Positions 8,417 to 59,035 of a stretch of DNA of 64,000 nt are shown piece by piece. The notes under the pieces were generated by a model. The model worked only from the letters and a program-made list of their open reading frames with translations, had not been told where the DNA came from and made no database searches. The DNA comes from Deroplatys truncata (lineage: Eukaryota > Arthropoda > Insecta > Mantodea > Mantidae): the NCBI GenBank assembly GCA_030765065.1, contig CM060990.1, forward strand, positions 497,788,190 to 497,852,189, in the 5' to 3' direction. Position 1 is the first letter of the stretch, and every line of letters starts with the position of its first letter. Position numbers and translations under genes: made by a program.

Positions 8417-8546
8417 TTCTGTAGTTTCCTTTTTGCACCTGGCAGTATCTCCAAAATAGTTTGGTCCACTATTTCCTTCACCTTTTGGACACTGATTGAT
8501 GTCTATTCGATCAAAGTCCATCTCCAGGACAGAAATTGCAGTATAC
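8417..8546 (-). CDS. host exon, GPR158-like class C receptor ectodomain
   Basis: A 130-nt exon on the minus strand, preceded by an AG acceptor (8547-8548, TTATCATCAG) and followed by a consensus donor GTAAGTG (from 8416 leftward). It starts with one base that completes a Thr codon from the previous exon, then 43 codons, and ends in phase 0. It encodes VLEMDFDRIDINQCPKGEG followed by PNYFGDTARCKKETTE. The paired Cys spacing and DINQC text resemble the segment after the Cache domain of GPR158/GPR179 and Drosophila CG31760, orphan class C receptors at the neuronal plasma membrane. The previous exon is 59035-58891. Unlike the TE frames around it, it has no stop or indel. The exon call is firm; the family name is from memory and less so. 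Confidence 0.75.
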
Positions 8547-9289
8547 CTGATGATAAAATGATTGCACCACATTCTTTACTACATGAAAAAAATGTTCTAC
8601 AAAGCTATTCCTTAACCTTAACATTGCTGTGTTATCTACAAGCCATGCTGCATGTCCATGCTAAACTAGCTTTATTACATATGAATTTAAAAAGTTAATG
8701 CTGTAACAGTATCTTGTAATTTGTTAATCCTTTGAAGCAAGTACTGAAGGCTAACTTGAAGCTACTCTATACCCAAATAAGTTATTAAAATAAAGCACAA
8801 ATTTGGAAACTCTCTCTTTAGTTTTCTATCTTTCTGGCTCAACATTCCATGTGATGCAAAATTTTTTTCTAAGTCCAACGTGAGTAGCATATTTTTTCCA
8901 AGTACAGTTTGACATTTTTAGGTCGAATATGCATGTTGAATTACTTTTTAGAGTAATTTGATGCTGGAGAACACATTTTTCTTAACATAACTTAAGGCTT
9001 ATAATTTTTTATTTGTTTACCTACTGCACATAGTCATATTGAAGAGACTAAATTCTCGTTTTAGCTTCACTTAAAACAATGCAGCCAACAGTCCTTTTTG
9101 TCTCTAAATCATACTGACTAGATAACTTTGTACACCATTTGTCCCTGAATCACACTGATCAGCTATGTACACTAACTAATTAACTTAAACACTGCTTGCT
9201 TAAACTTTAAATATAATCTTAACACTACAGGATAGACTTGCCTAATATCTTCCGTAAGTTCTTTGAAAGGGCCTGCTGAGCAGTTTTGG
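8547..9289. other. intron DNA next to the host exon
   Basis: The acceptor-proximal end of the ~50-kb intron (minus-strand gene). AT-rich, with no coding similarity or repeats recognised. Confidence 0.5.
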
Positions 9290-10070
9290 TAGTCAGCATG
9301 CCCCAAAAATACTCACAAATGCTAGCATTATATTTTCAAGTTGCCGCCCCTGGATAGTCAATGCTGTAGAGCTTCCAGCAAGATTCAATGCTATTTGTAT
9401 CTACATTTATCACTGGGCCTACAAGTGCTTACAATGATTGAATGTGAAGTGGACAGCAAATCCTCCAGCCATCAGCCCCAAGTATCCCCTGCAGGCATGG
9501 GTGTGTATGGTGCTGATGAACTCTACGTGCTCTGCAATTAAATTGTAGAGCATGTTTGCATCCCTATTGTTATTAGGTCATATCATCACCTACATCTCAT
9601 TTGTTTCCATGTGTATCATTCTATGGATCCATCATAGTCTTATCTTATATGTCGATTTGAAGGACATGGCCGAGACCACCAATTTTCCCTCTTGCAATAT
9701 ACTTGGTGTTATTAGAGATCATACATACTTCACGACAGTAACTGTACCAGTCACATACCGTCTGCAAGCGCACATATTGATCTCCTACCAAAGCTCCATT
9801 ACACATCGCATGACTGTTTGTATGCAAAGCAGTAGACGAACAATAGGATTTGACAGAGCAATAACTTTTTCCCCACTCAAACCACATTAGTTTGCATACA
9901 AACATGGTCAGGACTTTCCAAAAATGACCTGCCGCTAATTGCTTGCACATGTTACCTTCTACAGAATTCTTGTGCACATGTCCGGCGATTTTTTGCAAAA
10001 GTTGGCTACAATTGTTACAAATGTTGTGCAGGTTGGCTGCAATACAAGAAGCAACAGGGCTAGTTGACAT
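9290..10070 (-). pseudogene. Merlin transposase relic
   Basis: Minus-strand frame 10070-9645 and its frameshifted continuation resemble Merlin (IS1016-type) transposases. Recognisable in order are DWYSYCREVC (about 9745-9775), IGGLGHVLQID (about 9660-9700, where family members have GGPG..VEID with the first catalytic Asp), NRDA plus LYNLIAEHV (about 9530-9575), and a block near 9430-9450 reading GGFAVHFTFNHC like the family G(Y/F).H.TVNH. A stop follows directly after the first Asp block and more stops occur downstream. The N-terminal third (10070-9800) is open but less recognisable. Terminal repeats and the 8-9 bp target duplication were not found. Merlin moves by cut and paste using a DDE nuclease. 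Confidence 0.68.
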
Positions 10071-11139
10071 CTGCCATTTCAGTCTGCTTGTGCATGTGCA
10101 TTGGTGAACAATCGGACTTAGAAAAATGTCTCATGTCACAGGTTCGAAGGTTTCTCCTTTTTTTTTTTTTCAACTTATTATACAAATTAATTGTATGAGT
10201 TCTGTTTAAGGCATAAACATAGCTACATTTTTAAAACTTAATCAGTTTGTTAGTATGCAAATTCATAGAAGAAATGGTAGGAGAAGAAATGCTGATGAGC
10301 ACTTATAACAGAAAATGGTATTAAATAAACAGATATATATATAATTGTTTTCTTTCTTTCTTTTCAAAATTACAAACTTACTTTATTTGAAAATAGCCCA
10401 GTTTCTCAGCACATTTCAGGACTGCTTTCACTTACACAAATAAACAACAATTTGTTTTCACAATATCCTTAGAATGTTCTAGACTGTGCAACTCCTTTCT
10501 AATGAGAGAGAGGAAGAGGGAGAGGAAAGGAGGGAGTGAGGGAAGGAAGAAATGGCGGGGACACCACCTTAAGTTTTCCAGATTAAAGACAGCAAAATAT
10601 ACTTTTAGACTGTCACAATGACAGATTACATATTTCTCACTAAAACGTTTAATGTTGGTGTTATCACATTTAATGCAGCAATGCCAGCAAATGCAGCAGC
10701 CACTGTCAATAGCATGCCCTGTGACGTAATCGCTCAGGGCAAGTTAGCCTGGAACGAAAGACAACAGTAGTGCAGACACTAGCATATCTGAGTCTCAGCA
10801 CTACTGCTTAGCACAACAGTACAGCAGATCTTCACAGTGGCAGGACTCGCATCTCAGCAACACATTCTTTATTACAGATCATCTTGTTTTATAAATCACT
10901 AAATATTTGTTGTAACTATAGTATATAGAGACAAAGGAGGATGTTCAATTATTAATCTGAATTTCAAGGAAATGAACTTTATTGCACATACACAAAGTAG
11001 TTGTGCTACTGCTTATCATACAAATAAACTTCACTTACAAAACATGAAAAACAATCCAAAAACTAAAGTTCTGTATTATACTTCTTATAAATTATAAGGA
11101 TATTAAACAAACTATCCTTTTTCCTTTGAAAGTGAGATT
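10071..11139. other. AT-rich intron DNA with a purine tract
   Basis: No gene seen. It contains a T-run (10158-10171) and an almost pure purine tract (10503-10560, GAGAGAGGAAGAGGGAG and similar). Nothing else is supported. Confidence 0.5.
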
Positions 11140-11998
11140 TTTATTTTACAATGCATACATTGTTGATTTAATTAAGAGTATAAATTTACTGTGAGCCTGT
11201 CCTACTTTAATGAGATTTTTCAATCCTTTTTCAATATTGGAGGTCATGTTCCAAACAATACATTTTAAGTTATGGTCTGATATTAGGATTCTATATGGTG
11301 GCTTACAATTCATCATTGAAAACAATTTTTCACAAAAATATGCAGATGAAAACATGCTAAGGATATGGCAGCAAAACAATGCTGTTGTGGGAATCGTGAT
11401 CAGGAGAAATGAACACATTCAGATGCTTTCTATTTTGGAATTGATCTCCAAGTTCTATGTTATTCAGCAAATGACAACTGATGATGATTCAAACATTTCA
11501 ATTGTACAGTATTTGTGGTTTTCCCTAATACAGACATAATACCACTTAGCTGGATCCATTTAGCACATAAATGTTGTCGAATCATACAATGCAGAGCAAC
11601 AATATGATTAACTCAAGACATTTTGTCCTTAATTCGTTCAACAATTTCACTCTTAGTCCCTACAATGGAAGGTGCTCTATCCATTGCCAAAGGTACAAGA
11701 TTGCGCCACTGTAATTCAGCATTTTCTATGATCATTGTAGAGCAGTAAAAATGTACATAGCTGTTGTTTCTCCACGAATTGGAATGAGATCTAGTAACTC
11801 CTCCCACCTGGAGATTAGCATCAACACTTCTTAAAAAAATTATAATTAAGTGGTGTCAGAAACGTTAATGCTTTCATCTAAGGCCAATGAAAATGCTATG
11901 AAGTTATTAGACACACTTACAAGTTGTTCATGAACATTAATCATATCCTAAATGAGGTGCATTACTCTACTTGGAGACAAACTAACTGTCTAGTGACA

Positions 11999-14430
11999 AG
12001 TGGATTTCAAATACACTAATACCAAACCTACAAGGGTGTCTGCCTGCCTGGATAACATATTTACCAATATACAATTAACACGAGTAAACTGTGACACTGC
12101 TACCTTCCCACACTCAGACCATGACTCAGTCTGGCTTTCAATAAAAGAGCTCCTGTTAACCAACCAATCGTTATTGGAGACCAAAACCAAAACCAAAACC
12201 ATAATTTCAAGGCCAATAACTGGTACCAATCTTTCAAACTTCAGAATATCCTTATGTAACATTGAATGGAGTAACCTACTATATAAATCGCAACTCTCAT
12301 ATTTACTGTCAGCAAATGAAATCTTTGAAAGATTTTTCTTAACTCTAAAGAATACATTCGAACTGTGTATACCAGAGAGAAGGTGCACCGTCAAAATTAA
12401 CTTAACGCGTAAGAAAGGTAGAAATAAATCATCAAACACCTGGTATACTCCCCAACTAGCCGACCTGAAAAGAAGAACAATGACATATTCAGGCTTATTT
12501 AGGAGAGAAAAAACGGACAGGGCCAAGCAACTCTATGTTACAGCAAGAAATGAATATAAAGCTGCCATAGATGAAGCGAAAAGACTTCATAACTTGAAAA
12601 GTATAGAATTATCAAATAACAAATGTAGGAAAGCATGGAATCTGATCAATTCTGTTGCTAAATATCCCGAACACGACGAAATAGAAATCACCCCTGATGA
12701 CTTTAATAACTTCTTCATAAAATCAGTCGAAGAAATTAGAACCAATATTGTGCTTCCTGATAAAACAGCAATTGATTTAATAAAAGAAAATAAGAATAGT
12801 CAACACCCTGAATTTACCTTCTTGCAAGTAACTCCAGAAACAGTACTAAGGACAGTGATTAAACTCAAACCATCTGATAGCACCGACATCTATGGTTTCT
12901 CTAATAATTTACTAAAAAAGGTTATAGACTGCATAAATGAACCCCTCACATTCTGTTTAAACAAATGCTTGGCTCAGGGAGTTTTCCCTGAAGTATTGAA
13001 ACTGTCCAGAGTCATTCCAATTTATAAAAACGGAGATAAACGTCTAACAGCTAGCTACCGTCCAATATCTCTTGTTCCCATTTTCTCAAAAGTACTAGAA
13101 TCGATTATGTATACTCAATTATATAATTATTTTGAATTGAACAACATTATTACCAAATCGCAATATGGATTCAGGAAAGGGAAATCTACCTGTGATGCAA
13201 TAGTTTCATTAACAAGAGAAGTACTCACAGCATTTGAAAACACAAATTGTGCGCAGGCCTCTTTCTGTGACTTAAGCAAGGCTTTTGATTGCGTGGACCA
13301 CAATTATCTACTTAACAAATTAATATTCTATGGATTAAAAAACCCAGCAATTGAACTACTTAGATCATACCTAGTAAAGCGAAAACAGAAAGTTTGCATA
13401 GGCAGTAAGAAGTCAAAAATAGCAGAAACTAAATATGGTGTCCCACAAGGTTCAATTCTGGGACCTTTATTATTTTTAGTAATGATTAATGATCTACCAT
13501 CTTTTGTAGACTCTCACTCTACTTTGTATGCAGATGACACTACATTTTTTAATATGAGTAAAGATTTACAGACACTCAAATCCACAACAGAAATCACACT
13601 GACCCAAGCAGACAAATGGTTCAGAGCTAATGGCTTTCTACTTAATAAACAAAAGACACAACACATGATTTTTAACTGTAGAGATACACATAGTACAAAT
13701 TACACGGATAAAGTAAAATTCTTAGGCGTTATAATAGATAATAAATTAACCTGGGCACCGCATATAGAGTTTATAACTAAACTCTCTAGAGTAATACATT
13801 TGATTAGGAAATTGAAAATGCATGTTCCTGAAGTATACATTAGATCTGCATATTTCGCCTTCTTCCACAGCATTATTTCTTATGGCATTTTACTTTGGGG
13901 CAACAGTACTCACATTCATGATATTCTTGTATTACAGAAAAAAGCTATTCGCATAATGTCTTATGAATCAAAATTAGCTCATTGTAAACCATTATTTAAG
14001 AAATTAAAAATTTTGACAGTAATTAATTTGTACATCTACACAGTGATATTGTTTATAAAACAACACATATCAGAATTACAAAACAGACAAGATATTCATT
14101 CTTATAATACTAGATCATGTCAACTGATTGATATACCATATTGTAGATTGACTACAACACAGAAGAGTTTCGAAATACTTGGCTCTAAATTGTATAATAA
14201 GCTACCAGTAAAGTTAAAACAAAGTCCCATACCTAGTTTTAAGAATAAATTGTATGACTGGCTTGTTACTAAACCTTTTTATTCACTACAAGAATTTTTT
14301 GATGAATAGGTACATCTTAGTACCAATAATAATGTAAATATAATTTTGTAAATAGCCTATACTAGCATTATACTATCTGACGTCTATTACTGTAAAAGTT
14401 CAATGACAATAAAATTATTCTTATTCTTAT
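11999..14430 (+). mobile_element. 5'-truncated CR1/L2/Daphne-type LINE
   Basis: A 2.43-kb non-LTR retrotransposon inserted into the minus-strand hAT relic. It starts inside the endonuclease domain, has one long open frame, then about 120 bp of 3' UTR ending in AATAAAATTATTCTTATTCT (14408-14427), a short TTATTC-type repeat tail typical of this LINE group. The hAT sequence resumes at 14431; flanks share only CA, so the insertion looks nearly blunt. The 5' truncation is the usual result of incomplete target-primed reverse transcription. Confidence 0.9.
12000..14309 (+). CDS. LINE endonuclease tail plus reverse transcriptase, intact frame
   Basis: An uninterrupted 769-codon frame to the stop at 14307-14309. 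It opens at a GTG because the real start is lost by 5' truncation. Residues about 12-45 are the end of an APE endonuclease (RVSACLDNIFTN, then SDHDSVWLSI). The reverse transcriptase follows: SRVIPIYKNGDK and YRPISLVPIFSKVLE (about 335-370), SFCDLSKAFDCVDH, GVPQGSILGPLLF, and the catalytic YADD at residues 510-513 (13527-13538). The thumb and C-terminal domain end with HSYNTRSCQL and KLYNKLP, text typical of CR1/L2/Daphne-type elements. All visible catalytic residues are kept, so this is one of the youngest insertions in the window. It lacks the endonuclease active site and cannot be autonomous. Confidence 0.92.
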   Translation: MDFKYTNTKPTRVSACLDNIFTNIQLTRVNCDTATFPHSDHDSVWLSIKELLLTNQSLLETKTKTKTIISRPITGTNLSNFRISLCNIEWSNLLYKSQLSYLLSANEIFERFFLTLKNTFELCIPERRCTVKINLTRKKGRNKSSNTWYTPQLADLKRRTMTYSGLFRREKTDRAKQLYVTARNEYKAAIDEAKRLHNLKSIELSNNKCRKAWNLINSVAKYPEHDEIEITPDDFNNFFIKSVEEIRTNIVLPDKTAIDLIKENKNSQHPEFTFLQVTPETVLRTVIKLKPSDSTDIYGFSNNLLKKVIDCINEPLTFCLNKCLAQGVFPEVLKLSRVIPIYKNGDKRLTASYRPISLVPIFSKVLESIMYTQLYNYFELNNIITKSQYGFRKGKSTCDAIVSLTREVLTAFENTNCAQASFCDLSKAFDCVDHNYLLNKLIFYGLKNPAIELLRSYLVKRKQKVCIGSKKSKIAETKYGVPQGSILGPLLFLVMINDLPSFVDSHSTLYADDTTFFNMSKDLQTLKSTTEITLTQADKWFRANGFLLNKQKTQHMIFNCRDTHSTNYTDKVKFLGVIIDNKLTWAPHIEFITKLSRVIHLIRKLKMHVPEVYIRSAYFAFFHSIISYGILLWGNSTHIHDILVLQKKAIRIMSYESKLAHCKPLFKKLKILTVINLYIYTVILFIKQHISELQNRQDIHSYNTRSCQLIDIPYCRLTTTQKSFEILGSKLYNKLPVKLKQSPIPSFKNKLYDWLVTKPFYSLQEFFDE

Positions 14431-14625
14431 CATTCAAGCAACTGATTTGGAAATAATTCTGCAGCTGTTATCATTAAACAGACATTGATAAATTGTCTGT
14501 CACTATATAGATGCAGTTGTTCTACAATTTCTAGTGAAAGTTTGATGCTAAAGCACACTACTGATTCACTGACAGAATGCTCTTCTATTTCACTTAAATT
14601 GGTTTTTCATTTTTCTAGGAGTTTA

Positions 14626-15250
14626 CTCAGTCCTCTCCTTCATATCTGTCGTAATCACTAGCATGTCATGTTGAATAATGATGCAAGTTATACAATTTTA
14701 CTTGAACATTTTACAATGAATTAACACTTTGCCATGCTACCATAATCAGTACACAGACACAGTTCTTCCAAACCTTGCAAAAATGTTGTTGTTCCCATTG
14801 AATGTACAAATATAGTTTAAGACAGCTATTATCTTGCAGTGATGTATACGTCAAACATGGCAGTCATGCATGAAAACGACATTTCAATTTCTTTACATAT
14901 GGCAATATATCCAGAATACATTTCGTTAAAACCTTATTTCATTTACGTAATGTTCCCTATGATGCCAAATCTTCTGTTAACCTAGAGAGTATAGAATTCT
15001 CTGGCCAAATCATACAACTGGCAAAATTTGTCATTCATCTATCCAATGACTTTCAAAATATGTACAGATGGCAGCAAGATGCAACCACTGCCACCAAAAG
15101 TTACCTTGACCAGCATACGTTTTGCTTTGCTGCATCTGCATACGTGTTCTGATTTTTCTTGCATTTGCTTTGAAGCTTTAAAGGTTGAAATAGAATTGCT
15201 GCAAATCTTTCTGAATCCATGTAATCAGTATCAATGAAGATTGATTTTCA
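14626..15250. other. AT-rich DNA between hAT and Tigger relics
   Basis: No coding similarity recognised on either strand; the missing hAT N-terminus or its terminal repeat may lie here undetected. Confidence 0.4.
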
Positions 15251-15266
15251 AGTTGTATATTGAAAA

Positions 15267-17790
15267 ATGGAAGGAAATAAGGCAAAAAAGCGGAAAGTGC
15301 TTTTGCTTAACGAGAAATGGAAATTTTAAATCAGATTGATGCAAATTTTGTAACACATGTGGACTTGGCTTTGCGACTTGACATACCAGTATCTACATTG
15401 AATACAATTGTTAAAATCCTGTCAAAATTGAAGAGGCATACATGCACAGAGGTGATTTTACAAAATGCAAATCATTAAAGCAGTCTCCTCTGCAAGAACT
15501 ATAATCAGCTCTTGGATCACGGTTCAAACAAGCCCACGCTAGCAACATATCTATGGATGGAAGTGTGCTCCAGGAGAAAGCATTGTACTTGGCAGCTTGA
15601 ATGGATAGATCAATTTAAAAAGTTCCACAACCTAATGCACAAAAGTCTATTGGGGGAGAGTGCAAGTGAGAGCATTGATACTGTGGAAGAACGGAAAGCT
15701 GGAGCTCTCCTTAAGGAAATATGAGGGCTATGAAATAAAAGACATTTATAATACTGATGAAATGGGGTTGTTTCATAATTTGCAACCTCCGAAGACTGGC
15801 ATAAAAAGGGGAAAGTTGCCAAGGTGGAGTAAAAGCTAAGCTAAAGGATTACAGTTCTGTTATGCTATAATGCTGATGGAAATGACAAATTATCACCATT
15901 GGTAACTGGAAGATTCCAGAAATCACTCAGGTTTCAAAAATATTAAGACATGCAAACTTCCTACAAAGCTAACTGCAACTCTTGGATGATGACAGCCATT
16001 TTTTAAAATTATCTGTTGCAGCTTGACAGAAAGATGGGGTCACAAAACTAAAATCATTTTGTTCGACCAGTGTGTGGCACTGGTCGATGAATGTTGCTCA
16101 ACATTAAAAAATGTGAAACTTGTAATTTTTTCCTGCAAATTGTACCAGTAGATTGTATTGTACTGCAAATTGTACCAATTGTACCTTTAGATTTGGGTAT
16201 AATTGCCAACTTAAAGTATTTTTACCAGACGCAGGTTGAGTGCAAACCAATTGCAATGGTTGACAATGAAGTGATGAATGCAACAATAATCAAAATAAGT
16301 GTTCTCCAAGCAATGAATTTAATTTCTGAAGCATGGTATGCTGTGACTCTACTCACCATCCAGAACTGCTTCAGCAAAGCTGGTTTCCCTGTAGGAGGGA
16401 GGGGGTCATCTTGATTTGGAGGAACCCGTGCCAACTGGACTGGATGAGTAGGAGGAATTGGCAAGGAAAATGGTAAACTCTACTGAAGTGGACTTCAGTG
16501 ATTATGTCAACTGTGATAATGAACTATCAATGTGTGAAGTATGTAACGGTATTACTTACAAATGTTTGTTTACATCACGCGTTGAAGCCATCTTATGACG
16601 TCATTCATTTGTTTGGTTTGTAGCTCCATCTGGCGTTAGCAATTTGCGTTTCCTAGTATCAGTTTTTGAAATAATTCATTTCAAATGTCCTCCGGCTAGC
16701 TATTATCCTGTTGGCTTGGGTCGAACATGTGTCTCAATACAGGTTGTGAAACGGAAAGGAATCTTTTATCCAAAAATTACACTGATGAAGAAATTTGTTT
16801 TATAATTTTTATTTTCGAACACGTTCATTATCACTTTTACATATTGATCTAGATACTCGCCAAACTGAAACTGTTATAATACTTCTTACTGATCACTTTT
16901 AATTCGCATATTTCAACTTTGTGTATAATTAACTTTATAATACTTTAGATTTTTGTAACTTGTGAATCTATAGCCGACGTATCTCATACAAATATTTTGA
17001 CGAACTGACGAACTTAAGACGACGTGTATTGCACTAAGAATTTTGATGAACTGCCTAAATACGACGTGTAATGTATGAATGCTTTCGGCGAACTGAAGGA
17101 CTGACTGACGTTACCTCTAACCTAGCCTATTTATACGCCTGCATCAAGATACGCCTAAAGATTATAACTGAGCTGCAATTGGCTAATAAAACGCGCCAAC
17201 ATTAGCGTCTATTTTAATATCCAATGAAAACCACGAATACATATTGCTTTTAGGGAGAAAATATTCCAGAAGTTTCTACCGAAAACGCATCAACATTACG
17301 TAACTTCCTTGTTTCCAATAATGATAAACAGCTCACCCCCCTCTCTGCATTATTGCGCTATTATTGACAGTTTCAGTAAGGCCGTATAAACTTACTTATC
17401 AATAATAATTACAATTAATAAACATCTGAAATCAATATCGCATAAAAATGCATATTCATATTACAATCATTATTTACATTTAAGTAATTTGTGATACAAA
17501 TTACTGCATCAAGTACAAACCTTAGACCAAGTTCTGGGGCAGCAGGTGTCTACCTAGAGGAAAATAGTGATGAGGAAGAGGAACCAGAGCAACCAAAACC
17601 TACATTCCATGAGGCATTAGCTTGGATGCAGTAAGAAGATACCTGCATTCTTTTGACATTGATAGTGAACATTTAGTGATGTGTAACAAGCTTTAAAATA
17701 AACTTTACAGACTTAAATCAACACAGAAAATTAAACAGGTTTTTGTAATGGATTGGTTGAGAAAGTAATGTTTTGTAAGTCCTGATTAGC
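15267..17790 (+). pseudogene. pogo/Tigger transposase relic, split by a solo LTR
   Basis: Plus-strand relic of a Tigger-type (pogo group of Tc1/mariner) transposase. The start reads MEGNKAKKRKVLLLNEKW (15267), the usual N-terminal CENP-B-like DNA-binding region. The DDE core is visible as DIYNTDEMGLFHNLQP (about 15745-15790; first Asp), CYAIMLMEMTN-like text with its shifted partner NADGNDKLSPL (about 15860-15900), and LGIIANLKYFYQ (about 16195-16225), the family QGII..LK..Y block. TIQNCFSKAGF follows at 16350-16385. The acidic C-terminal tail (DEEEEPEQPKPTFHEAL, about 17570-17625) and DIDSEHLVMCNKL lie beyond a 970-bp LTR at 16542-17511. Removing that LTR and one copy of its AGTA duplication rejoins the frame. 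Many other stops exist. Confidence 0.85.
16542..17511. mobile_element. solo LTR with 4-bp target duplication
   Basis: A 970-bp insertion in the Tigger relic begins TGTAACGG and ends CTGCATCA, so it has TG...CA ends, and is flanked by AGTA on both sides (16538-16541 and 17512-17515). Deleting the insert plus one AGTA restores the Tigger frame, which fixes the boundaries. It has no coding region, fitting a solo LTR left by recombination between the two LTRs of a gypsy-type element. A possible promoter (CTATTTATAC near 17127) and a polyadenylation-like AATAAA (17186) lie inside. It differs from the three gypsy LTR pairs in this window. Orientation cannot be fixed. Confidence 0.82.
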
Positions 17791-17814
17791 TGTTATTCCA
17801 TATTTATTCAGTAT

Positions 17815-19010
17815 TCATTATTTATTCAGTTCTTTGCATATAGTATCATGTAGTATGTTAATTTGAATAAAACTGTATGTGTGAAACTTTTCATTGGTTT
17901 CCCTGACTTTACAAAATTTTTCAGCGGTCTGCAGACAAGTGTAAAATACGGGTTTCATTGTATCCTCAGATAGGAAATAAGACTGAAGAGCTGAATGAAT
18001 TTCACAAATTCCTTTTACGATGGTGACAGCCACTCACATTACTGTAACCAAGAATATCTTTATATTCCTGGTCAACAAAATCAAAGCTCTTTCAGTCGTT
18101 CAACTCGTACCAAGTAGATATGGAAATATCCAAACATCTTCACAACAAAACAGTCTTTGTCAAGTGAAATTGTGTCTATTGCAGAATGAGTACAACTGTG
18201 TATCATATGAGCCACACATCCCTAACCAATAGCTTTTCTGTTTAAACTTTCTTTTATTTTACAAAACATACTGTTCATACCTTTTCGTTTCAAACCTCCA
18301 AAGTTAGTGTTTGTATTGTCCCCAGATATGGCTATCACTTTATTTTCAATTCTTAGTTTCCTCACTACATGCAGAATATTACGTGAAAGAATTTCAGCTG
18401 TTTCACCCTGAATTTCAAGTAAATGAAATATTTTGTCCGTGCTTTAACATGTTTCATTTAAACTACATATCTAACCACAATTGGTAATAATTTCATATAA
18501 CTGATTAGATGCATAAATCAGTAGTCACAAATGAAGTTTTCATCAGTTCATTTAATTTGTCAACACCCATGGAGATGTAACACCACACACAACTGTTTCC
18601 ACTTTTGTCCTGGAACATGTAAACTTTGGCTCGCAGAATTTCTTCACCAGTACACATGTACAGTCCATGGATTTGAAACTTTGATAATGGATTATGGTAT
18701 GGAACACAAAAATACCTTATTGCAGTGTAATATCCATACAATTCTTGTCTGGGACAGCACTTTTGAAATAATTAGTCAATTTTGTTTTACAGGAACCACT
18801 GTGCGTGATCGCAGAATTTTTATGTCTCTTTGTGGCCACGTTCAGTAACAGAAGTTCTCCCACCACTATTAATGACAAAGTTTTGCACAATGAGCAGAAG
18901 ACTGTATGATCATTAATTCCACGCTTCAGAAAATTAAATTAATTTAACAATGCATCACTAGCTATGCATTTGTATTTTTTACATTTCTGCTCAGACATTT
19001 TTCAAATTAC
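17815..19010 (-). pseudogene. hAT transposase relic with BED finger
   Basis: Minus-strand relic of a second hAT lineage. The N-terminal part (about 19000-18830) reads MSEQKCKKYKC, then DHTVFCSLCAKLCH, resembling a BED zinc finger that binds transposon ends. The catalytic part (about 18360-18090) reads ISGDNTNTNFGGLKRKGMN, then GCVAHMIH and CFVVKMFGYFHIYLVRVE, the block common to many insect hAT proteins. The last recognisable text is EIHSALQSYFLSED (about 17955-18000). The C-terminal dimerisation domain is missing: the sequence runs into the Tigger tail near 17800. Multiple stops and frameshifts make it nonfunctional. No terminal repeats found. Confidence 0.75.
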
Positions 19011-19326
19011 ACAAAGGACATCCTTCTTAGCATAGACATAAGCTACATACTATTTCCGCTATAAGAATTTTGTTTCCAGAAGGAAGCAATGATAAATCAA
19101 ATGCGCAGAAATACTATGCACGCGATCTCGCCATCTAGTGGAGAAACTGTCAACTATGTCTGCTGGCACCAATGTATTAATTGATATACACAATTTTCAC
19201 TTTAACATCTATCTAGCACAGCAATTAATGAAGTCACATTCAAAACCAGACATTTTTGGAAGTTTATTAAGAATCAGGGAAATTCTGAGACAGAAGTAAG
19301 AATTCGGGGACCGACCCTGGAAACTG
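19011..19326. other. short spacer between hAT and piggyBac relics
   Basis: No clear feature; the 19230-19326 part may hold poorly preserved piggyBac coding sequence. Confidence 0.35.
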
Positions 19327-46941: not shown

Positions 46942-46979
46942 TCATTTCATTTCATTTCATTTCATTTCATTTCATTTCA
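46942..46979 (+). repeat. (TTTCA)n microsatellite
   Basis: Seven perfect ATTTC/TTTCA pentamers in a row. Confidence 0.95.
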
Positions 46980-48204: not shown

Positions 48205-48450
48205 CACACGAGACAACAGAACGAGCTACAAGATAATGAAAACAGCATCAGAAGCAGGTAAAGTATACTGCTTCAAAATTGTCGTACCATCACATGAGAC
48301 AGCAGAACGAGCTACGAGATAACAGCATCAGAAGCAGGTGAAGAATACTGCTTCACAATTGTCGTACCATCACACGAGACAACAGAACAAACTACAAGAT
48401 AATGACATCAAAAGCAGGTAAAGCATACTGCTTCAAAATTGTTGCACCAT
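48205..48450 (+). repeat. three tandem ~80-bp repeats
   Basis: Units at 48205-48290 (86 bp), 48291-48370 (80 bp) and 48371-48450 (80 bp). Each begins CACA(C/T)GAGACA(A/G)CAGAAC and ends with a CTGCTTCA(A/C)AATTGT block and a final CACCAT or TACCAT. They are about 90 percent identical. Confidence 0.95.
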
Positions 48451-49010
48451 AGCACGGCTATAAAAATTCAGATAATATAGTACGTTATTAGTCTGTAGCT
48501 CACTATTCCATGCATTTTAAAGAAACTGTTCTGGAAAGAAGCTCAACAATAACAGCAAGTTTATTGAATAAAAAGTGATTTCTAAAACCACTTCCCTACT
48601 TTCAGTAAACAATCCTAAATTAATCATTGTAAATGTTCGGACCATATTTTTACCCCCAGATTTATGTTCTCTTAATTTTCAATGGAGCTTTCACAGTAAG
48701 ACATACAGTTTTAACATTATCACTGTCATTGTCATGTATGATAACTGTGTAGAGGAAAAAGGGCTGTCAGAACTTCTGCAGTGACAAATGCAAAGTTACT
48801 CCATAATCAAAATGTGTTTGCATGATGAAGAAAGAACTAAATGTTGGCTAAGCAGGTAGTTGCGAATAAACATACTTATCGTTTACTAAGGTCAAGTTAT
48901 CTCTACATCACATATGCAAGCATTTGAAATCTGTCTTACTTAACAAAAATGTACCTGGTACACAGAGAAATCAATATTACTTGGAAGTAATGAAGTACTA
49001 AAGCCCATGA
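48451..49010. other. AT-rich intron DNA left of the second gypsy element
   Basis: Nothing recognised. Confidence 0.4.
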
Positions 49011-49494
49011 TGTGGCATGTGCACAGATAATATTGATAAGACGCTCTCTGGGCACCGAAGGACGGCAGTTTGTCTGTGAGTAGGGGTGAGTCAGGGGAAA
49101 CAGTGTCAAGGTGGGGATAGCGTTACTGACGCCCGAGTTGGCGTGGCTTTTTGTAACAGTCAGTAAGTAAGCTTCGAGTGAGACAGACGGGAAACTGCTA
49201 AAGCACGATGTCCTCGTCGGCAGGCAATGGGCAAAGGTATGTGAGTATTTAATTTCATTTAATAAACGGTGTTCCATCCACGTTTGGAAGTCTTAATTAT
49301 GGTAGAATAGAATCTTTCCTCTCCCTTAAGCCAGGCATTGTGTTGGTGTAGCAATTATTTTGGAATTTAACTTTAGCTGCGTCCCTCGTCGTTAGCTCGT
49401 AATTTGAAGTTCTTTGTTTGATTTAACGATCCCTCTCGCAAGCGAGTAGCTCCCCTCTGTAGTTGAAAAATAATATAAAGAGAGGCATACGACA
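49011..49494 (+). repeat. 5' LTR of the second gypsy element
   Basis: 484 bp, TGTGGCATGTGCACAG to GGCATACGACA, TG...CA ends. Directly after it comes ATTGGTGTGAGGCACCAGG; the TGGTGT start may be part of a primer-binding site, but I cannot name the tRNA. Confidence 0.95.
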
Positions 49495-50616
49495 ATTGGT
49501 GTGAGGCACCAGGCAGAGTTTGGTTTGTTGTGAGATTTTCAAGTGTAAATTTTTTTTTCCCTCTGAAATGTAACGGTTTGTGGTCCTCCACGTGGTCGCG
49601 AAAAATCTAAATTTGTTTCTGGCTTAAGGGTAAGGATTTTTATGCTTTAATTTGTGATTCTCTTATTCTAAATTTTGTCACTATAATATCTGAAAGTCTG
49701 GTTTCTAAATTTTAATTTTGAGTTCATTTTTGCATTTTTCCCATTGTCTGCCGGCGTGACGCTAAAACTTCTGACTCCATTTTCCTCCTATTTTGGCTTC
49801 ATTTCCTTTAAATTGTATTGCTGTGCTAAGTGGTTCGTGCTGGTTATTTTCAAATATATTTTTGTGGAAGTTGAGTTGTGAAACGAGTGAGATAACGAGC
49901 GAGATATTTGTATCTTTGAAAATGTGCTCGTCACGTGTTGGCCATCTAGGTGAAAATCTTGTTTTCTGTGCTTATTAGCAGTGGTTCTGGAAACTTATAA
50001 CTTTATATTCCAGTGATTGTGATTTCTAGCTGTTTACTATACTTTTGTGGGACATTTTTCGTGTAACTTTTATGTACGCACGTGTGTTATGTAATTCCCG
50101 CGTGGTCATGCATTTCAGCAATAATTTTAGCTTGTGAAACCAGTCTTCCTCAGCACGTGTTTTGGCGCGTTTATTTGCGTGTGTATATCAGGTCAGATAC
50201 ATTTGTTTTAAGAAAAAAAAGAGAAGGAATTTTTTTTTTGTGCTACGTCTAAATTGCAAGTCTGTATTCTGCTCCTTTTGAGATAATGTTAGCGGTGGTC
50301 ACAGTAGGTGTGACGTGGTTTTTTAACTTTCAGTTCGAGGTTTCTCACTGAAGCTATCATTTTGTTTTCTTCCATGTGTTCATTCTGATTAAAAATCTTG
50401 GTATTGTGTCCAAGTGGCTTGTGTAGTTCGTATGTTGGTATAATTTTCTGATATTTCGCCGCGGGCGCTTAATTGTATTCTTTCTGGAACTGTTTTATTT
50501 GGCTATGTTCTGATCTTGCTACTTACATTCATGTGACGCTATAAGTGTTTAGTTTGGTGTAATCTGTATCGCTTTGTCATACTGTTTATTTACTGGTTAT
50601 CTTTTGTGCTGCAATC

Positions 50617-51670
50617 ATGCCTAAGCGACGTACTGGCCAGAAATCTGATATAGCAATTGCTCCAGTTAGCGAGCACAGTGAAGTAGAATCTATGTCCAGT
50701 GTTAGTACGCCTGTTGTTACTCGGTTACTAGCGATGTCTAATCTGCCTGTCGTGGCCAGTGCAACGCAGTCAGCTGTCTGTCGCCTGGTCATTGACCCCT
50801 CTTACTTTGAGAATTCCAGCAGGTTGTCGGCGCATGAATTTCTGCAGAACTTTGAAATGGTCGCTGCTGCTAATGTCTGGTCAGAAGAAATGAAATTGAA
50901 ATGCTTTCCATGCTATTTACGAGATACTGCTGCATCATGGTTTCAAACTTTTCGCCATCGGCACCCTCACCATGATTGGGTTTTCTTGTCTACACAATTT
51001 CTAAATGCATTTCATAACAAACCAGAGTGATATTCTGGAAATGAAACTCAGACAGCGGGTACAGTTGGATGATGAACCTGTTATTAGTTACATCTATGAC
51101 GTGCTATCTTTATGTGACCAAGTCAACCCAGCTATGTTGCAGTTGGAACAAATTAAACACTTGCTTAAAGGTCTTAGACCTCTGTATGTACAATCTTTAT
51201 TGCCATTAAATCCTCAAACTGTTGATGAGGTAATACAAATCATTCGACGAGTGGACAAAGCACAGTTTTACATGCAGAACCGTGAACATCTAGTGTCTGC
51301 TCAATCTCAGGCTGCAGTGGTTACGCCACCCTCTGTTCTATTCAATAATGCATCTGTTCCTGCTGTTACTTTACCAGCCTCTCCTCAGCCTTCTCAGGCT
51401 TCTTCTCTTGTGGGCGTACCTATCGATCCTATGCATCAGCTGATTGATCGTGTGGAACAGTTATGTAACAGAGTTAACCAGTTTCAGTTACCATCTCCGG
51501 AGAGAACTTCACAGCATTCACAGCTTCCACGGTCATCTGACTTCAACCGGAGGGATCCACCCGTCACCTGCTATAGATGCAACAGGCAGGGCCACCTGGC
51601 TCGCTTTTGCCGGAGCCGCCTCCCGCAGTCAAAAAACGACTCGCGCCGAGCCTCATACGACGAGACGTAG
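50617..51670 (+). pseudogene. gypsy gag, one frameshift
   Basis: Structural polyprotein that forms the particle. It starts at ATG 50617 (MPKRRTGQKSDIAIAPVSEH) after a 1.1-kb leader. Capsid landmarks include PSYFENSSRLSAHEFLQNFE and AASWFQTFRHRHPHHDW, then the frame breaks: the first part stops at 51028-51030 and the rest continues from about 51005 in another frame (SDILEMKLRQRVQLDDEPV), consistent with a single-base indel near 51025. The C-terminus carries a CCHC zinc knuckle, CYRCNRQGHLARFCR (51570-51614), which binds element RNA. Gag ends at 51668-51670 and overlaps pol, which lies in the -1 frame. Confidence 0.92.
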
Positions 51671-53529
51671 CAGCACCACCACCGCCCACCAACATGGCTG
51701 CACCTCAACGGGATGTGTCTGCATTATCAGGTCAGATCTTGCAAGTTACTGGTCGTATTGCCCAGACAGAGCTCTCCATCTTGCTCGATACAGGAAGCGC
51801 AGTGAGTATTGTGAATGCTGTACATGTTCTTGACCATTCTACATTAAAACCTATAGAGATGATGCTCCGCACTGCAGGAAACAAGTTACTTGATGCGCCT
51901 TACCACACTGTGTTAGATTTCCATATTAATGATGTTCTTTTTCAGGAGGATGTGCTAGTTGTGAAAGATTTGTCCCATGATTTAATTTTAGGCAATGACT
52001 TTTTGCAGACCCATGATGTTATAATTGACTATGCACATAATCTGATAACCCTGAAATCTTCTAAGAATGATGCGTTCAGTATACCAATAACCCTAACACA
52101 AGGACCTTTTGTTGATATGGCAGTAAACCCTCTTCAAGATAATGATTGTGCAGATTCTGGTGTTAAAATGGCAGTTATGAATGATGTTAAAATTCCACCC
52201 CTGTCTACATGCTATATATCAGTTAAGCCTTTGTCAGCCATTAGCAATGAGGTTATGTTTGAACCTGCTCTTAACATAATGCAAAAGAAGAATCTTTCCA
52301 TTCCACCGTTATTGTGTCATTCTGCCTCTGAACTTACTATTCCAGTGCATAATAATACTTCAGTTCCACAAACATTGTTTGCAAATACAGTCTTAGCCAA
52401 AGCTTATGATGTTGCACTCGTTCAGAGTAATTCTGTTTTATCATCTGATGTTACTCCTCTGCCAGCTCCAAATTGTAATTTTAATGTTAATGGTAAACTC
52501 CTGGAAAGCCAAAAGGCTGACTTACATGCTTTGTTATTGAAATATAGTGATCTTTTTGCCACAACATTACAAGAACTTGGTACTACGGATGTTGCAGAAT
52601 TTGATATCAAAGTAAATGACCCTAAGCCAATTAAGCAAAGACCATATAGAGTTCCCCATAAACAAAAGGAAATTATTGCTGAGCAAGTTAAAGAGATGCA
52701 AGATGCTGGTATTATCAAGGAATCACAGTCCTCCTGGGCTTCTCCTGTAGTACTTGTCAAAAAGAAAGATGGCTCCATGAGATTTTGTGTCGACTATAGA
52801 AAATTGAATGCTGTTACAGAGACCACCTCTTTCCCTTTACCATTGATAGATGATTTGTTAAGTTATTTGGGGGAGGCTAAATGGTTTGTCTCATTAGATT
52901 TACTGTCAGCATACTTTCAGGTACCTATTGCAGAGGATAGCCAGAAGTACACCTCTTTTGTTACTTTTCAGGGTCAATATCAATTTACACGCTTGAGTTT
53001 TGGGTTGGCAAATGCCCCTAGGTTTTTCAGTTACATCGCAGACAAGTTGTTAGGCGATTTGAATTTTAAAAAGGCTATTGCATATCTGGATGACATTGTT
53101 GTCTTTGCTAAAACCTTTGAGGAGTTGTTACAAAATCTTGAGGCTGTTTTTCAACGTCTGGATCACCACAAGTTTAAACTCAAACCAGAAAAATGTTTCT
53201 TCGCCATGCAAAAGATCAAACTCTTAGGCTTTGAAGTTTCTAAAGATGGCATTTCACCTGATTCTGACAAAGTTGTTTCCATTCAAAATTTGCCTCATCC
53301 TAAAAATGTTCGAGATGTGAGAAAAGTTTTGGGATTGTTTAATTTTTACAGGAAATTCATCAAGGACTATGCTAATATTGCTCAACCACTAATTCAGTTG
53401 ACTAGGAAGAATCAAAGTTTTATTTGGGGATCTGATCAGCAAACTGCATTTCAAAATTTGAAAGACTTATTAGTTTCGGCCCGTCTTAGCTCACTATACT
53501 CCTGGTGCTTATACCGAACTACACTCTGA
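51577..53529 (+). pseudogene. gypsy pol, first part (protease, reverse transcriptase)
   Basis: A 650-codon open frame in -1 register to gag; the in-frame ATG at 51577 is probably not a real start, since translation would enter at 51631-51637. Protease: LLDTGSAVS with the catalytic Asp at residue 71 (51787), flap and LILGNDFLQTHDVI downstream. Reverse transcriptase: KQRPYRVPHKQKEII, FCVDYRKLNAVTETTSFPLP, SLDLLSAYFQVPIAED, FGLANAPRFF, and the catalytic YLDD at 503-506 (53083). The thumb and connection reach VRDVRKVLGLFNFYRKFIKD. The frame ends at 53529 because of a single-base indel near 53495-53510, just before the RNase H HSDAS motif. Otherwise catalytic residues are intact. Confidence 0.95.
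51631..51637 (+). promoter_or_regulatory. -1 ribosomal frameshift heptamer A AAA AAC
   Basis: In the gag frame the codons read TCA AAA AAC, placing A_AAA_AAC exactly in X_XXY_YYZ register, 31 bases before the gag stop and inside the gag/pol overlap. Pol is in the -1 frame and open through this point. CTCGCGCCGAG (51641-51651) just downstream could form a short stem. Confidence 0.82.
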
Positions 53530-55201
53530 TGCCAGTGGACTAGGGGTTGCCTCAGTGTTGTATCAGAAGATTGATAATGTGTTGAAACCAGTGGGCTATG
53601 CTTCGAGGACACTATCTAAATGTGAACGTAATTACAGTGTTCCTGAGTTGGAATTGTTGGCCATCCTGTTTGGACTTACCCACTTCCGCAGTTTTGTTTA
53701 TGGCTACAAGGTTCATATTGTATCTGATCATCACTCCCTTTGTTATTTAAATAATTTGAAAGATTTGACTGGGCGTTTGGCACGATGGAGTTTGAAATTG
53801 CAAGAGTTTGATTACACCATTTCTTATAAATCTGGCAAGAAACATCATGATGCTGATACTCTATCGAGATTTCCTGTGTTACAACCTACAGAAAGTGATC
53901 TTGAACAGCTTGAAGAACTTCCCACATGTTTGCTGTCATCAGTTGAAGTTGCTGACCACCAGAAGAAAGATACTGGGTTACTTGAGCTTATTAATGCTCT
54001 CCATGATCCTCCGTCGGCCCCTGCTAAGCTTCAGAGACAAGTTTCCAACTACACACTCAAACCAGGTGTTCTTTATCGTAAAAATGCTGGCTCCACTGGC
54101 CCTCTCCATCTGCTGGTTATTCCAGAAGCTCTAAAACATGAAATTCTTTCTTCATGTCACGATGATCCTCTTTCAGGCCACTTAGGATTCTCAAAAACAT
54201 TTGCCAAAATTCACTCCAGGTATTACTGGATTGGGATGAAGAAAGATATTGAACATTTTGTACGAACCTGTCCCAGCTGTCAAACAAGAAAAGGACCGAA
54301 GAATCAGAAACCAGCAGGCTTATTACAACCAATTCCGGTTACATCTGTAGGCGAGCGGTGGGGTATTGATTTGCTTGGGCCTCTCCCACGCTCAAATTCT
54401 GGACACAAGTATGTTGTCGTTGTGACCGAGTATGCTTCTCGCTGGGTCGAGTCTGCGTCGCTTTCTTCAGCAACAATCCCTCAAGTTGCTAAATTTATTT
54501 TGCATAACATCATCTGTAAGCATGGAGCCCCTGCTGCCTTGTTATCTGATCGTGGCTCAGTTTTCTTAAGTGAGGTGACACAAGAATTGTTGAGATCTTT
54601 ATCAGTGTCCTCCAATTTCACCAGTGCTTATCATCCAGCTTGCAACGGACTTACTGAAAGATTTAACCAAACCCTCTTAAATATGCTCAGCCATTTTGTG
54701 GACAATAATCAGAAGAATTGGGACTCAATTTTGCCCTATGTCATCTTTTCGTATAACTCAAGTGTCCAAGAGTCTACTAAATTTTCACCCTTTTTCTTGA
54801 TATATGGTCGAGAACCTTCTTTACCTAACCAGGTTCAGCTACAAGCTATGTCTAATGACCTTTTTGTGAGACAGACGTTGCAAGAGATTCAGAAGGCACG
54901 GGAGGTTGCTGTTGCTAACATTACAAAGCAGCAGGTGAAGCAAAAAGAAGCATTTGATGCTAAACACAGGGATGTGGTTTATAATGTAGGTCAATTAGTT
55001 AAATTTTTCACTCCCATTAGGAAGAAAGGTAAATGTACAAAGTTGCTACATAGATATTTTGGCCCTTTTGAAATTATCCGACAGATCACTCCCGTTACCT
55101 ACCTTGTTGGTCGACCTCATGCTCCCCGTACCAAACATCAGAGTGTTCATGTGTCACGCCTTTACCCTTACTATGATCCTGTGGGTCCTTATAAACTGTG
55201 A
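53510..55201 (+). pseudogene. gypsy pol, second part (RNase H, integrase)
   Basis: Continues pol in the next frame to the stop at 55199-55201. RNase H: LHSDASGLGVASVLYQK (about 53520-53570), PELELLAILFGLTHFRSF, and VSDHHSLCYLNN. Integrase: the zinc-binding HDDPLSGH...CPSCQTRKG (54160-54295), then the DD35E core with Asp in WGIDLLGPLP (about 54367), Asp in LLSDRGSVFL (54548) and Glu in NGLTERFNQTL (about 54655), 35 residues after the second Asp. The C-terminal domain reads VVYNVGQLVKFFTPIRKKG and FGPFEIIRQITPVTYLVG and ends near VSRLYPYYDP. All integrase catalytic residues are present. Only the upstream frameshift separates it from the first part. Confidence 0.95.
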
Positions 55202-57457
55202 AGTCTGAGGTTGTGATGCTTAATTAAGCTTTGCTTTTAGGAATGTGTGATATTAATGTCTCTGCTAAATTAAAAGTGTATTATTATTGTGGGTGTAACT
55301 TAAATTTTGAATTATGTTTTGGGAATTGCAAATTATTTGGTTTGTTTTGTTGTGTTATGCTGCAGGAATGTGTTTCATGTGTACTATGTGCTTAATTGAG
55401 CTTTCATTTTCAGGAATGTTCTGTGACAATATTGTTTTGAGTAATGATGTGATGTTTTGTTGCATTCGATTTGATTTGATATGATGTGATTTGATTTGAC
55501 TCGATTTGATTTTGGGTTTCATAATGATGCTGTGATTTTTATTTGCAGAAAATTGTTGCATGAATAGTGTGTGTATTTGAGGTTATGTGATATATGTGAG
55601 ATTTGCCTCGGTGGGAGTGCCAAAGAATAACCCCGATGGCGTAGTGTGAGGTTATGTGAGAAATATTAGTTGAGATTTGCCTCGGTGGATGTGCGTAAGA
55701 GTAACCCCGACGGTGCTAATGTGAGAGATGAGATGAGGAGAGATGAGAAGAGATGAGAGGATGTCAGCTTCGGTGGAAGTGCCACAGTGTAACCCCGACA
55801 GTTGTTGTATGAATGTGTTGATTTTTCAGGAGGGCTACATGTACCTGGAAAGTTGATGTGATGTGATGATTTCAGAGATTTTGGCTTATTGGTGTTGCTG
55901 TAACGTGCCCAGTATAGCGTGTGTGATGAATTCACACGAGAGATTAAATGGATGGAAAAGATTGTAATGTGAATAATTTTTTTTTCTGTTTATGCAACAA
56001 GTTTATTACCATCTTAGATAGCAAATTTTAATACCAACTGTTTTCCAGCTTAATTTTCATTTGGAGGATGTGGATGCAACAGTATAATGTCATGTTATTT
56101 GTGCCATTCCTGAAATTTTAATGTGATTTCTTGAAGGTTATGCCTATGTTAGATGTTTTGAATTTGCAGCATGGTAAATGAGACACGTCAGTGAAGATGT
56201 TTTGTTTTGAAGAGAAAATTGAAAGTTGAGATAAAGATGTTAATGACTGCAGTAATGATGCTGATGATGATGATGATTATGATTGAGTTGATGATAATAA
56301 TGAGATGAGGAAGATAGTACTGTGGACGAGAAACTGTATTAGTGACAAGAGTATGACAATAGTAGTTGAAAGCATGTCACGTGGCGTAGTTTGGAGATGT
56401 ATTGTGGATGTATTTTGAGGTTTGTAGTAATGCATACAGTAGTTTGAGTAGCTAGCTAAGTGAGTGTTGTGTGTAATTTGGACCATGGTCAGTGTGAATG
56501 AGTTCATTTCATTGTCATGTGTGATTGTCTTGTAAGTGCACTTATTTTCTTTTGTTAGTGATACCAGCTGGTTATTAAGATTTAATATTGGGATCCCAAA
56601 TAAGGTTATGTTTTTCTGTCATGTTAATGTATTCTGAGTCTGTTTTACTGTTTTATTTGGATTGTGAAGCATTGTGAGTTAAATTTTGGATGGCAATTCT
56701 CTATAAAATTTAGTTCTTATGCCAATTTGTACTTATTTTTTTTCTCTTTCTTTGCCCATGTCAAAAGAATGTTAGTGCAAACTTTTCAACCTTTCAAATA
56801 TTTAATTGTACATGACATACCGTTCTTTTTATGTGTGATTGTTTGTTGGAGCACCCTTTTTATTGTTTGGTGGTTTTGTTCTAGTATTTTGCTGTGGCGG
56901 AGCTCGAGAGCATCCAGGAGTACCCCCGTGGCACACCAGAAGTCAAGAAACACCACAGGGACGCTGTCGGGCAGCCACTACACTGCCGTGGCATAAGGAG
57001 CCACTATTTTGGGGGGGCAGTCCAAGCCAGCGACTGCCCACCCTGTTGTCATCACCAGAGACCTGCAGTGATGATTCTACACCAGGACAAATCGTCGTTG
57101 TGGGCACATTAAAATCACCCACAAACAGTTCCAGCAGACCATCGATATTTTTCGCAGTGTAGTGTGCGTGTGAACTGAGGCAGCGTGGTGTGTGTGCGTG
57201 TGCGGGGTGCTCAAGTATAAGTGCAGTAACAATATTAGTCGATAAGCACTTAAGTTTCTCGAGACTCCACATCGCCCAGTAACATTGTGTCGTCGTCTGG
57301 GTGCTTATCACACATGTATATTATTCTGTTATATTTTGGTGCATCACACATGTTTAATTCTTTTTATTATGTATGTCATTTGTGTTATTTAATATCTCTT
57401 ATTGTATTTATTTTCCTTGTGTCGACGAGGGCGTCGACTTCGGTGGCCAGGGGGAGA
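55202..57457 (+). other. long 3' noncoding region of the gypsy element
   Basis: 2.26 kb between the pol stop and the 3' LTR with no env-like or other credible coding sequence. The first 800 bases are T/G-rich (GATTTGATTTGA-type text at 55465-55510) and hold three spaced copies of a CTCGGTGG...AACCCCGA motif (55600-55641, 55673-55717, 55765-55801) with self-complementary ends. The last 500 bases are GC-richer. Confidence 0.7.
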
Positions 57458-57939
57458 TGTGGCATGTGCACAGATAATATTGATAAGACGCTCTCTGGGC
57501 ACCGAAGCACGGCAGCTTGTCTGTGAGTAGGGGTGAGTCAGGGGAAAGTGTCAAGGTGGGGATAGCGTTACTGATGCCCGAGTTGGCGTGGCTTTTTGTA
57601 ACAGTCAGTAAGTAAGCTTCGAGTGAGACAGACGGGAAACTGCTAAAGCACAATGTCCTCGTCGGCAAGCAATGGGCAAAGGTATGCGAGTATTTAATTT
57701 CATTTAATAAACGGTGTTCCATCCACGTTTGGAAGTCTTAATTATGGTAGAATAGAATCTTTCCTCTCCCTTAAGCCAGGCATTGTGTTGGTGTAGCAAT
57801 TATTTTGGAATTTAACTTTAGCTGCGTCCTTCGTCGTTGCCTCGTAATTTGAAGTTCTTTGTTTGATTTAACGATCCCTCTCGCAAGCGAGTAGCTCCCC
57901 CCTGTAGTTGAAAAATAATATAAAGAGAGGCATACGACA
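57458..57939 (+). repeat. 3' LTR of the second gypsy element
   Basis: 482 bp; same ends as 49011-49494, about 2 percent divergent with a 2-bp deletion near 57546. Host sequence resumes at about 57940. Confidence 0.95.
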
Positions 57940-58890
57940 ATATTTGTACCCCTGGTTCTCAATGTGTTAAAAGAACTATAAATCTGGAACAGGCAAATAT
58001 TTATGCAGTGCCCATCAACAATGTCATTGTTACTTTTGCGGGTTGCATTTTATGTTACCCAAGATGTTGTATTGCTGTGTGCCTATTGTGATTGAATTAT
58101 CATGTGAATCTTACTGTCATTGTGTTTGCTGACAGCCTTATAATCCTGCTAAATAGTGATCTTGTGATATTTTGCAACATGTGTCTGAACAGTTGAAATG
58201 AACAATTAATATAATTAAAGAAAAGATGGTTAGTAAAGTTTGAGAAGCTTTAGTAAGAACAACAACTTAATTTGTTACCAACTTCTTTTTAGAATTCAAC
58301 TAATGCAAAACTTGTTTCTTGTATTTTCTTATAGTACCTCTAAAGAACACATAAAAGGAAGATCAACATTTTTGGAAACTGTAATGTACAAGTAGGAATC
58401 CATTTAAAACAAAATTTGTTATGTAAAGCACACACACATTGCCAACTGATACTTGCTTTCACCATTCTAAGAGTGATACACTGCTTTCATCTAAATGGGA
58501 AGGAAGATATACAACAGATGGCAATGGAATTGGAATCCAGAAAATTTCTGGATTATCATCCAAATGTGCTAACAAGATATTGGAGGTAGTTAAGCTGCTG
58601 TTTGGCCAATTTTGCTTCTCTTGCACATGAATACAGTAATATTATGATGCTTTTTATACTTGCACAACTACAAAAGAGCATAAGCAGTTGTAAGGGCATG
58701 CAATAATAAGAGGAAAACAAAAAGACATTTATACCAAATTATTTCTTATTCTACAAGGCTCAACTGTAATTTTGCTATAATAAATTACTGCAGTAGTTAG
58801 GTGTTTTAATTAATTAGCAAGCAGTATAAATATATGTAGTCTGAAGCTTTCTGCATTCTTCCATAAATATGTACCCATTATCATACTCAC
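57940..58890. other. intron DNA between gypsy element and host exon
   Basis: AT-rich; begins the ~50-kb intron right after the host donor site (58890 leftward). No feature recognised. Confidence 0.45.
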
Positions 58891-59035
58891 GTTGGATATT
58901 CAATATGTCTGAATCCTGTATGACGAGGATAAATATCTGCAATTGGAACAACTGCACTTACAAGCCACTTATTTGAACGGCCACAGTCAAAATAAGGGCG
59001 TGTCCATTTTACAGGACCAGGAACTTCATCAGCAC
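58891..59035 (-). CDS. host exon, GPR158-like class C receptor (Cache-type region)
   Basis: A 145-nt exon on the minus strand. Acceptor: TTTTTCTTCAATAG ending at 59036; donor: GTGAGTATG from 58890. It begins with two bases completing a Gly codon, then 47 codons, and ends with two bases (AC) that the next exon completes as ACG (Thr). It encodes DEVPGPVKWTRPYFDCGRS, then KWLVSAVVPIADIYPRHTGF. The W..PYFDCG....W.VS...P pattern fits a Cache-like extracellular ligand-binding domain, as in GPR158/GPR179 and the Drosophila CG31760 product (from memory). It is free of stops and indels, unlike the TE relics. The partner exon at 8546-8417 continues the protein in frame after a 50.3-kb intron. Other exons lie outside the window. 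Confidence 0.78.

Follow-up and report, generated by a model that had tools for sequence, protein, structure and literature searches.

A transposon-rich 50-kb intron between two consecutive exons of a probable GPR158/GPR179-family gene in the mantis Deroplatys truncata

Exons and intron at the locus

The stretch of DNA analysed here, hereafter the window, comprises 64,000 nucleotides of contig CM060990.1 (C16; C16:497788190-497852189) of the mantis Deroplatys truncata, from a genome of 4,289,915,091 bases in 818 contigs. It almost certainly holds part of a GPR158/GPR179-family gene, namely two consecutive minus-strand exons and the full 50,344-bp phase-2 intron between them. Exon E1 (58891..59035, minus strand, 145 nt) encodes the distal part of an extracellular sensor domain, ADEVPG...EYP plus the first two bases of a Thr codon, and is flanked by TTCAATAG upstream and GTGAGTAT downstream. 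Exon E2 (8417..8546, minus strand, 130 nt) completes the sensor domain and opens an EGF-like linker (DINQC); it closes in phase 0 and is flanked by ATCATCAG upstream and GTAAGTGT downstream. Both exons have canonical ends, AG|...|GTGAGT in E1 and AG|...|GTAAGT in E2. The GT-AG intron (8547..58890, minus strand) splits a Thr codon in phase 2 (AC|G), and one of the three frames is open across the join, yielding 91 amino acids. The original prediction, read from the raw sequence without tools, had given these same exon coordinates, splice sites and codon phase, and the case illustrates that exons 50 kb apart can be paired correctly in this way.

When the exon peptides of relatives were compared with the window by tblastn, each exon had a single strong match, with expectation values (E) of 6.4e-30 and 4.9e-25, while the next-best matches for the two exons reached E = 1.0 and 1.1. 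The splice signals of both exons are good, yet not unique. By a simple score against the textbook consensus, the two donors rank 82 and 38 among 3,613 minus-strand GTs, and the two acceptors rank 169 and 268 among 4,088 minus-strand AGs. It is therefore homology and collinearity, not the splice signals, that place the pairing of the two exons beyond chance.

With 100 kb of flank added on each side, the region examined amounts to 264 kb and contains no N. Neighbouring exons were located in it by tblastn with relatives, and are given in window coordinates that may be 0 or negative: E-2 (163080-162943), E-1 (104746-104628), E3 (-23758 to -23923) and E4 (about -44726 to -44906, its ends read from the search output), all on the minus strand. 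The six exons are collinear on one strand over ~208 kb, and their five junctions are all in phase (2, 1, 2, 0 and 1). Joining E-2 to E3 gives an open protein of 232 amino acids, and the E3-E4 junction yields KIGWKHKLPVQW, which was compared by eye with KIGWIQKMPVQW and KIGWVRKVPIQW in relatives. The join of E1 to E2, as originally predicted, is upheld by these four further exons outside the window and by relatives that read straight over the junction; the collinear same-strand neighbours and the spanning relatives rule out an origin of the two exons from different genes. In gene order, the introns measure 58,196, 45,592, 50,344 and 32,174 bp, followed by 20,802 bp obtained by subtraction. Since the five introns span 20.8-58.2 kb, the 50.3-kb intron is typical of its gene; being the second longest of the five found, it is not exceptional there.

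Family assignment and paralogous loci

The joined 91-residue peptide matches the Pfam family GPR158_179_EC (PF22572) with E = 2.4e-12 and 47.7 bits (cut-off 28.1 bits). The single exons reach E = 0.001 (E1) and 1.1e-5 (E2), both under the cut-off, and the far better value of the join fits adjacent parts of one domain. Exon E1 also has a weak match to the sensor domain PF22673. The 232-residue product of five joined exons covers positions 1-95 of the 96 in the PF22572 profile (E = 3.5e-24, 85.7 bits) and matches chains of GPR179 and GPR158 in the PDB with E = 3.5e-10 to 3.4e-9. A 12-sequence profile, built from the joined peptide together with 11 relatives, found five PDB chains of human GPR179/GPR158 with E = 7.3e-6 to 1e-4; as a single-sequence PDB query, the 91 residues returned nothing but an unrelated match at E = 0.7. 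The cysteine-rich, EGF-like linker (DINQC in E2, CEPL...GGYQCRCRPGF in E3) aligns with the GPR179/158 chains, and separate EGF models of Pfam reach only E = 0.03-0.09 on the 232-residue peptide. Structure predictions for two relatives were too poor for use, with a mean predicted local distance difference test score (pLDDT) of 52 and 43.

The family-domain match, the relatives across the junction and the four collinear exons beyond the window bear out the predicted GPR158-like gene. Once spliced, the two exons would code for the last part of the ligand-sensing domain and the beginning of the EGF-like linker, and available passages on human GPR158/GPR179, which share low identity with the window gene, describe the same order of sensor domain and EGF-like linker (PMC8611064, PMC12716839). 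Drosophila CG31760 is included in the class C table of PMC1192796, in the part available. The predicted description as an orphan receptor is outdated for the human relative, which is named metabotropic glycine receptor in its PDB entry and in which glycine is recognised by the Cache domain of GPR158 (PMC12834959); the accessible portion of that source yielded no residue names for the glycine pocket, and literature searches for these residues brought up two listings at most. In the alignment, D314 of the presumed calcium site of human GPR158 corresponds to Asp in the window gene and D316 to Asn. Glycine is presumably bound by E271 and D307 of human GPR158; if that assumption is right, their aligned counterparts, Asp and Glu, would flank the 50-kb intron, one on each side.

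Other matches to the domain in the genome are located at C8:126543786 and C8:126454133 (~89.6 kb apart, taken as one locus) and at C16:550110565; that at C8:126454133 contains one TAG in the matched stretch. By eye, a paralog on the same contig as the window gene (L003) has an AG|A acceptor with the split codon 19 residues from a conserved cysteine, as in the window gene, and the copy on C8 has an equal phase with two residues fewer to this cysteine. Because the L003 acceptor is at the same residue, the intron position probably predates that duplication. A stretch at C16:550217225 (L040), ~107 kb downstream of the extracellular match of the second GPR158-like gene on C16, resembles a seven-transmembrane (7TM) exon of that gene.

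Position of the intron among relatives

For the 91-residue search, the best 120 of 138 homologs were examined; the 232-residue search gave 150 homologs at E<=1e-10, of which the best 120 were taken, and the two sets pooled to 219 relatives (120 from the first and 99 new). The pooled set includes 74 relatives that span E1|E2 in local alignment; 58 of them show no gap and share 9 or more identical residues in the region up to 8 residues from the junction. The other junctions are likewise gap-free and alike in 54/68 (E-2|E-1), 71/84 (E-1|E1) and 39/55 (E2|E3) of the relatives concerned, and one protein of 307 amino acids from a 1,133-bp contig (P0123) is gap-free over all four junctions tested, with 76% identity.

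Unless stated otherwise, the counts that follow concern the best 120 of 138 homologs. In local alignment, both exons are spanned by 41, two of which carry inserted residues where the exons meet; 24 cover E1 only, 50 cover E2 only and 5 fall elsewhere. In relatives that break at E1|E2, position and phase are those of the window gene. Donor-side breaks all occur at the same base (21/21), with the next residue being Tyr in 15 and the protein ending in 6, as expected of a phase-2 GTA donor. Those on the acceptor side also share one base (35/35), and the residue before YT is Arg in 29 and Ser in 6, as AG|N demands. P0004 and P0039 have 21 and 20 extra residues at the junction, as if an intron of 63 and 60 bp had been read through, so that on this peptide evidence their intron appears to be only 63 and 60 bp long, compared with 50,344 bp in the window gene. 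The locus is thereby a clear example of an intron whose position is fixed to the base while its length seems to range from ~60 bp, in these two relatives, to 50,344 bp.

An alternative intron place is found 55 nt further on, at DINQ|C, where Val follows in 27 of 28 proteins, as GTR in phase 0 would give. Among the 72 of 120 proteins informative at both sites, with pieces lacking E1 scored at the first site by the Arg/Ser rule, 35 break only at EYPT|YT, 28 only at DINQ|C, 9 at neither and none at both; the remaining 48 gave no information on at least one of the two sites. It seems improbable that a single intron was lost and regained, moving once between the two places, and that at the first place it then ranges from ~60 bp to >50 kb without known helper sites for splicing. 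The either-or pattern could also be explained by shared ancestry alone.

Notodromas monacha and Trichonephila clavata proteins read across E1|E2, with 71% identity over 83% and 65% identity over 77% of the 232 residues, respectively; that of N. monacha is named 'GPR158/179 extracellular domain-containing' in UniRef. In Orchesella cincta (83% identical over 60%) and Brassicogethes aeneus (81% identical over 60%), the match ends just past E1|E2. A Timema podura protein (P0136) is 66% identical over 80% of the 232 residues, and its model lacks E2; the published annotation may have missed an exon. The 120 homologs listed for the 232 residues also include ticks, a tardigrade and a rotifer. Viral contigs gave 97 pattern matches and prokaryote contigs 74, but no relative was confirmed among them.

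Removal of the intron

The intron occupies an old, fixed place and most likely expanded through transposon insertion, like its neighbours in the same gene. It is most likely removed as one ordinary GT-AG intron of 50,344 bp, and there is a good probability that this happens as a single step in which splice sites are recognised across short exons (exon definition). Exons of ~119-181 nt between introns of tens of kilobases fit exon definition, the mode suggested for the locust in the available text of PMC8011201.

Several points weigh against this account of the gene and its intron. The argument for splicing across 50 kb comes from homology, and that for exon definition from exon length and a crude search for ratchet motifs. 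Many relatives are without the intron: among the best 120 homologs, the junction is crossed without a break in 38 of the 59 that have the donor-side motif, including the top two matches (P0001 and P0002, with the intron absent or spliced), and in 37 of the 72 that have the acceptor-side motif. Exons for the 7TM part were not found for the window gene: there are 23 PF00003 matches genome-wide (E<=0.01), none within ~3.4 Mb of the window, although such a search may miss a domain that is divergent and split between exons. Weak 7tm_3 matches occur downstream of the other two GPR158-like loci, at ~107 kb (C16) and 340-477 kb (C8), and as none lies near the window gene, we infer the membrane part of its receptor.

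Stepwise removal by recursive splicing at ratchet points is an unlikely alternative. In flies most introns >40 kb contain recursive sites, according to the accessible part of PMC6110457, which makes this the usual route for introns of such size there. In the window, the sense strand of the intron has no strict ratchet motif (pyrimidine tract and YAG|GTRAG). Chance alone would yield few of them in any case, the mean over 40 simulations being 0.28. The highest-scoring lenient AG|GT site was equalled or beaten in 80% of 60 simulations, and is thus no better than chance; the opposite strand holds a higher-scoring one. With so crude a ratchet score, a weak site might escape notice. Single-step removal is preferred here, and the intron lends itself to studying how splicing keeps up with growing introns in which no ratchet point is apparent.

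It is very unlikely that further exons, constitutive or alternative, are hidden in the 50 kb between E1 and E2. The intron is large, and the Pfam scan (E up to 0.005), which covered 146 open reading frames (ORFs) of at least 75 amino acids and the two exons, left out 140 of the window's 286 ORFs of at least 60 amino acids (those of 60-74) and anything shorter. Nonetheless, E1 runs into E2 without a gap in 58 of the 74 spanning relatives, and the peptides used gave no further GPR158 match in the window. A dead paralog, or a join produced by misassembly, is scarcely credible: such a view could draw on the GPR158-like matches at apparently two other loci and on the unseen 7TM exons, but all six exons are undamaged, have GT-AG ends and stay collinear and in phase, identity to relatives reaches 88% among the matches listed, and the 264 kb contain no N.

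Transposable elements and intron size

The original prediction held that the intron had absorbed most of the transposons described in the window. Transposon spans do make up 21,573 of its 50,344 bp (42.9%), as drawn by us with inner unmatched stretches included and with 15479-15840 resting on a DDE match without an assigned ORF; however, a mariner and a long terminal repeat (LTR) pair of 99% identity sit in the neighbouring introns. Matches to the transposon proteins of the window number 10 in the 50.3-kb intron; the 58.2-kb intron has 8, the 45.6-kb intron 4 and the 32.2-kb intron 6, and another 12 lie past E3. These counts favour the window because the query proteins came from it.

Intron size is ordinary for the gene and for a very large genome, and long transposon-rich introns are already known in large insect genomes. 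In the available portions of the sources, the mean intron of the locust is 11.12 kb, with upper quartiles of leader introns of 34.6 and 46.4 kb (PMC8011201), the median intron of the American cockroach, P. americana, is 3 kb (PMC5861062), and intron expansion is described in the stick insect Clitarchus (PMC5691397). The introns of the window gene do not differ from these in kind, and lie at the long end. A literature search on GPR158 with introns and insects found nothing relevant.

A Ty3/gypsy-type LTR retrotransposon (49009..57941, plus strand, antisense to the gene) lies in the intron between LTRs 97.5% identical (49009-49496 and 57456-57941), and has matches to gag, protease, reverse transcriptase (RT), RNase H and integrase in ORFs at 50563-55201. 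A degenerate gypsy-type LTR element (23755..28759, minus strand, sense to the gene) has LTR-like repeats 85% identical, and its inner part carries 48-66 stops per frame in all three frames. Compared with the unassigned part of the intron, it is richer in GC (0.51 versus 0.34) and has a higher CpG ratio (0.68 versus 0.35), possibly reflecting an origin elsewhere or a different age. The CpG observed/expected ratio of 0.35 in the unassigned part of 8547-58890 might have been left by DNA methylation. Non-LTR retrotransposons in the intron comprise one (11997..14309, plus strand, antisense to the gene) with an open frame of 770 amino acids (RVT_1, E = 3e-34) and one degenerate copy (39021..43533, minus strand) with an endonuclease piece at 42674-43087 and a weak RT piece at 41301-41666; the outer limits of the latter are guessed, its end pieces (39021-39458 and 43006-43533) having no Pfam match. 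A transposase remnant in the intron (37863..38309, plus strand) is labelled hAT-like by its motif; it has two homologs and no Pfam match.

The next intron (E2-E3) contains the mariner-type DNA transposon (3290..4626, minus strand), with 40-bp terminal inverted repeats 90% complementary. In the preceding intron (E-1 to E1) is a young LTR element (59739..64000, continuing to 64128, minus strand) with LTRs at 59739-60903 and 62963-64128 that are 99% identical. No pol domain was detected among its ORFs scanned, the longest of which encodes a repeat-rich, coiled-coil-like protein of 295 amino acids and overlaps a tandem array of ~99-bp units. The sequence adjoining its LTR resembles a transfer RNA (tRNA)-Lys primer site.

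The two exons had been predicted to be the only coding pieces of the window other than transposons. This holds at the Pfam level among the scanned ORFs, where the remaining families are transposon-type domains and a weak helix-turn-helix match in the mariner, except for two lone weak matches (Apolipoprotein, E = 7.5e-4, and InvE_AD, E = 3.4e-3). Searches of the window for tRNA and Rfam families gave none at the gathering threshold. Nested inverted repeats (I1, I2, I4, I5 and I6) at 40007..40849, which has no assigned strand, form a long palindromic element of fold-back type or like a miniature inverted-repeat transposable element (MITE), and seem to make up a single fold-back element, ~840 bp long, within the limits drawn for the degenerate non-LTR retrotransposon.

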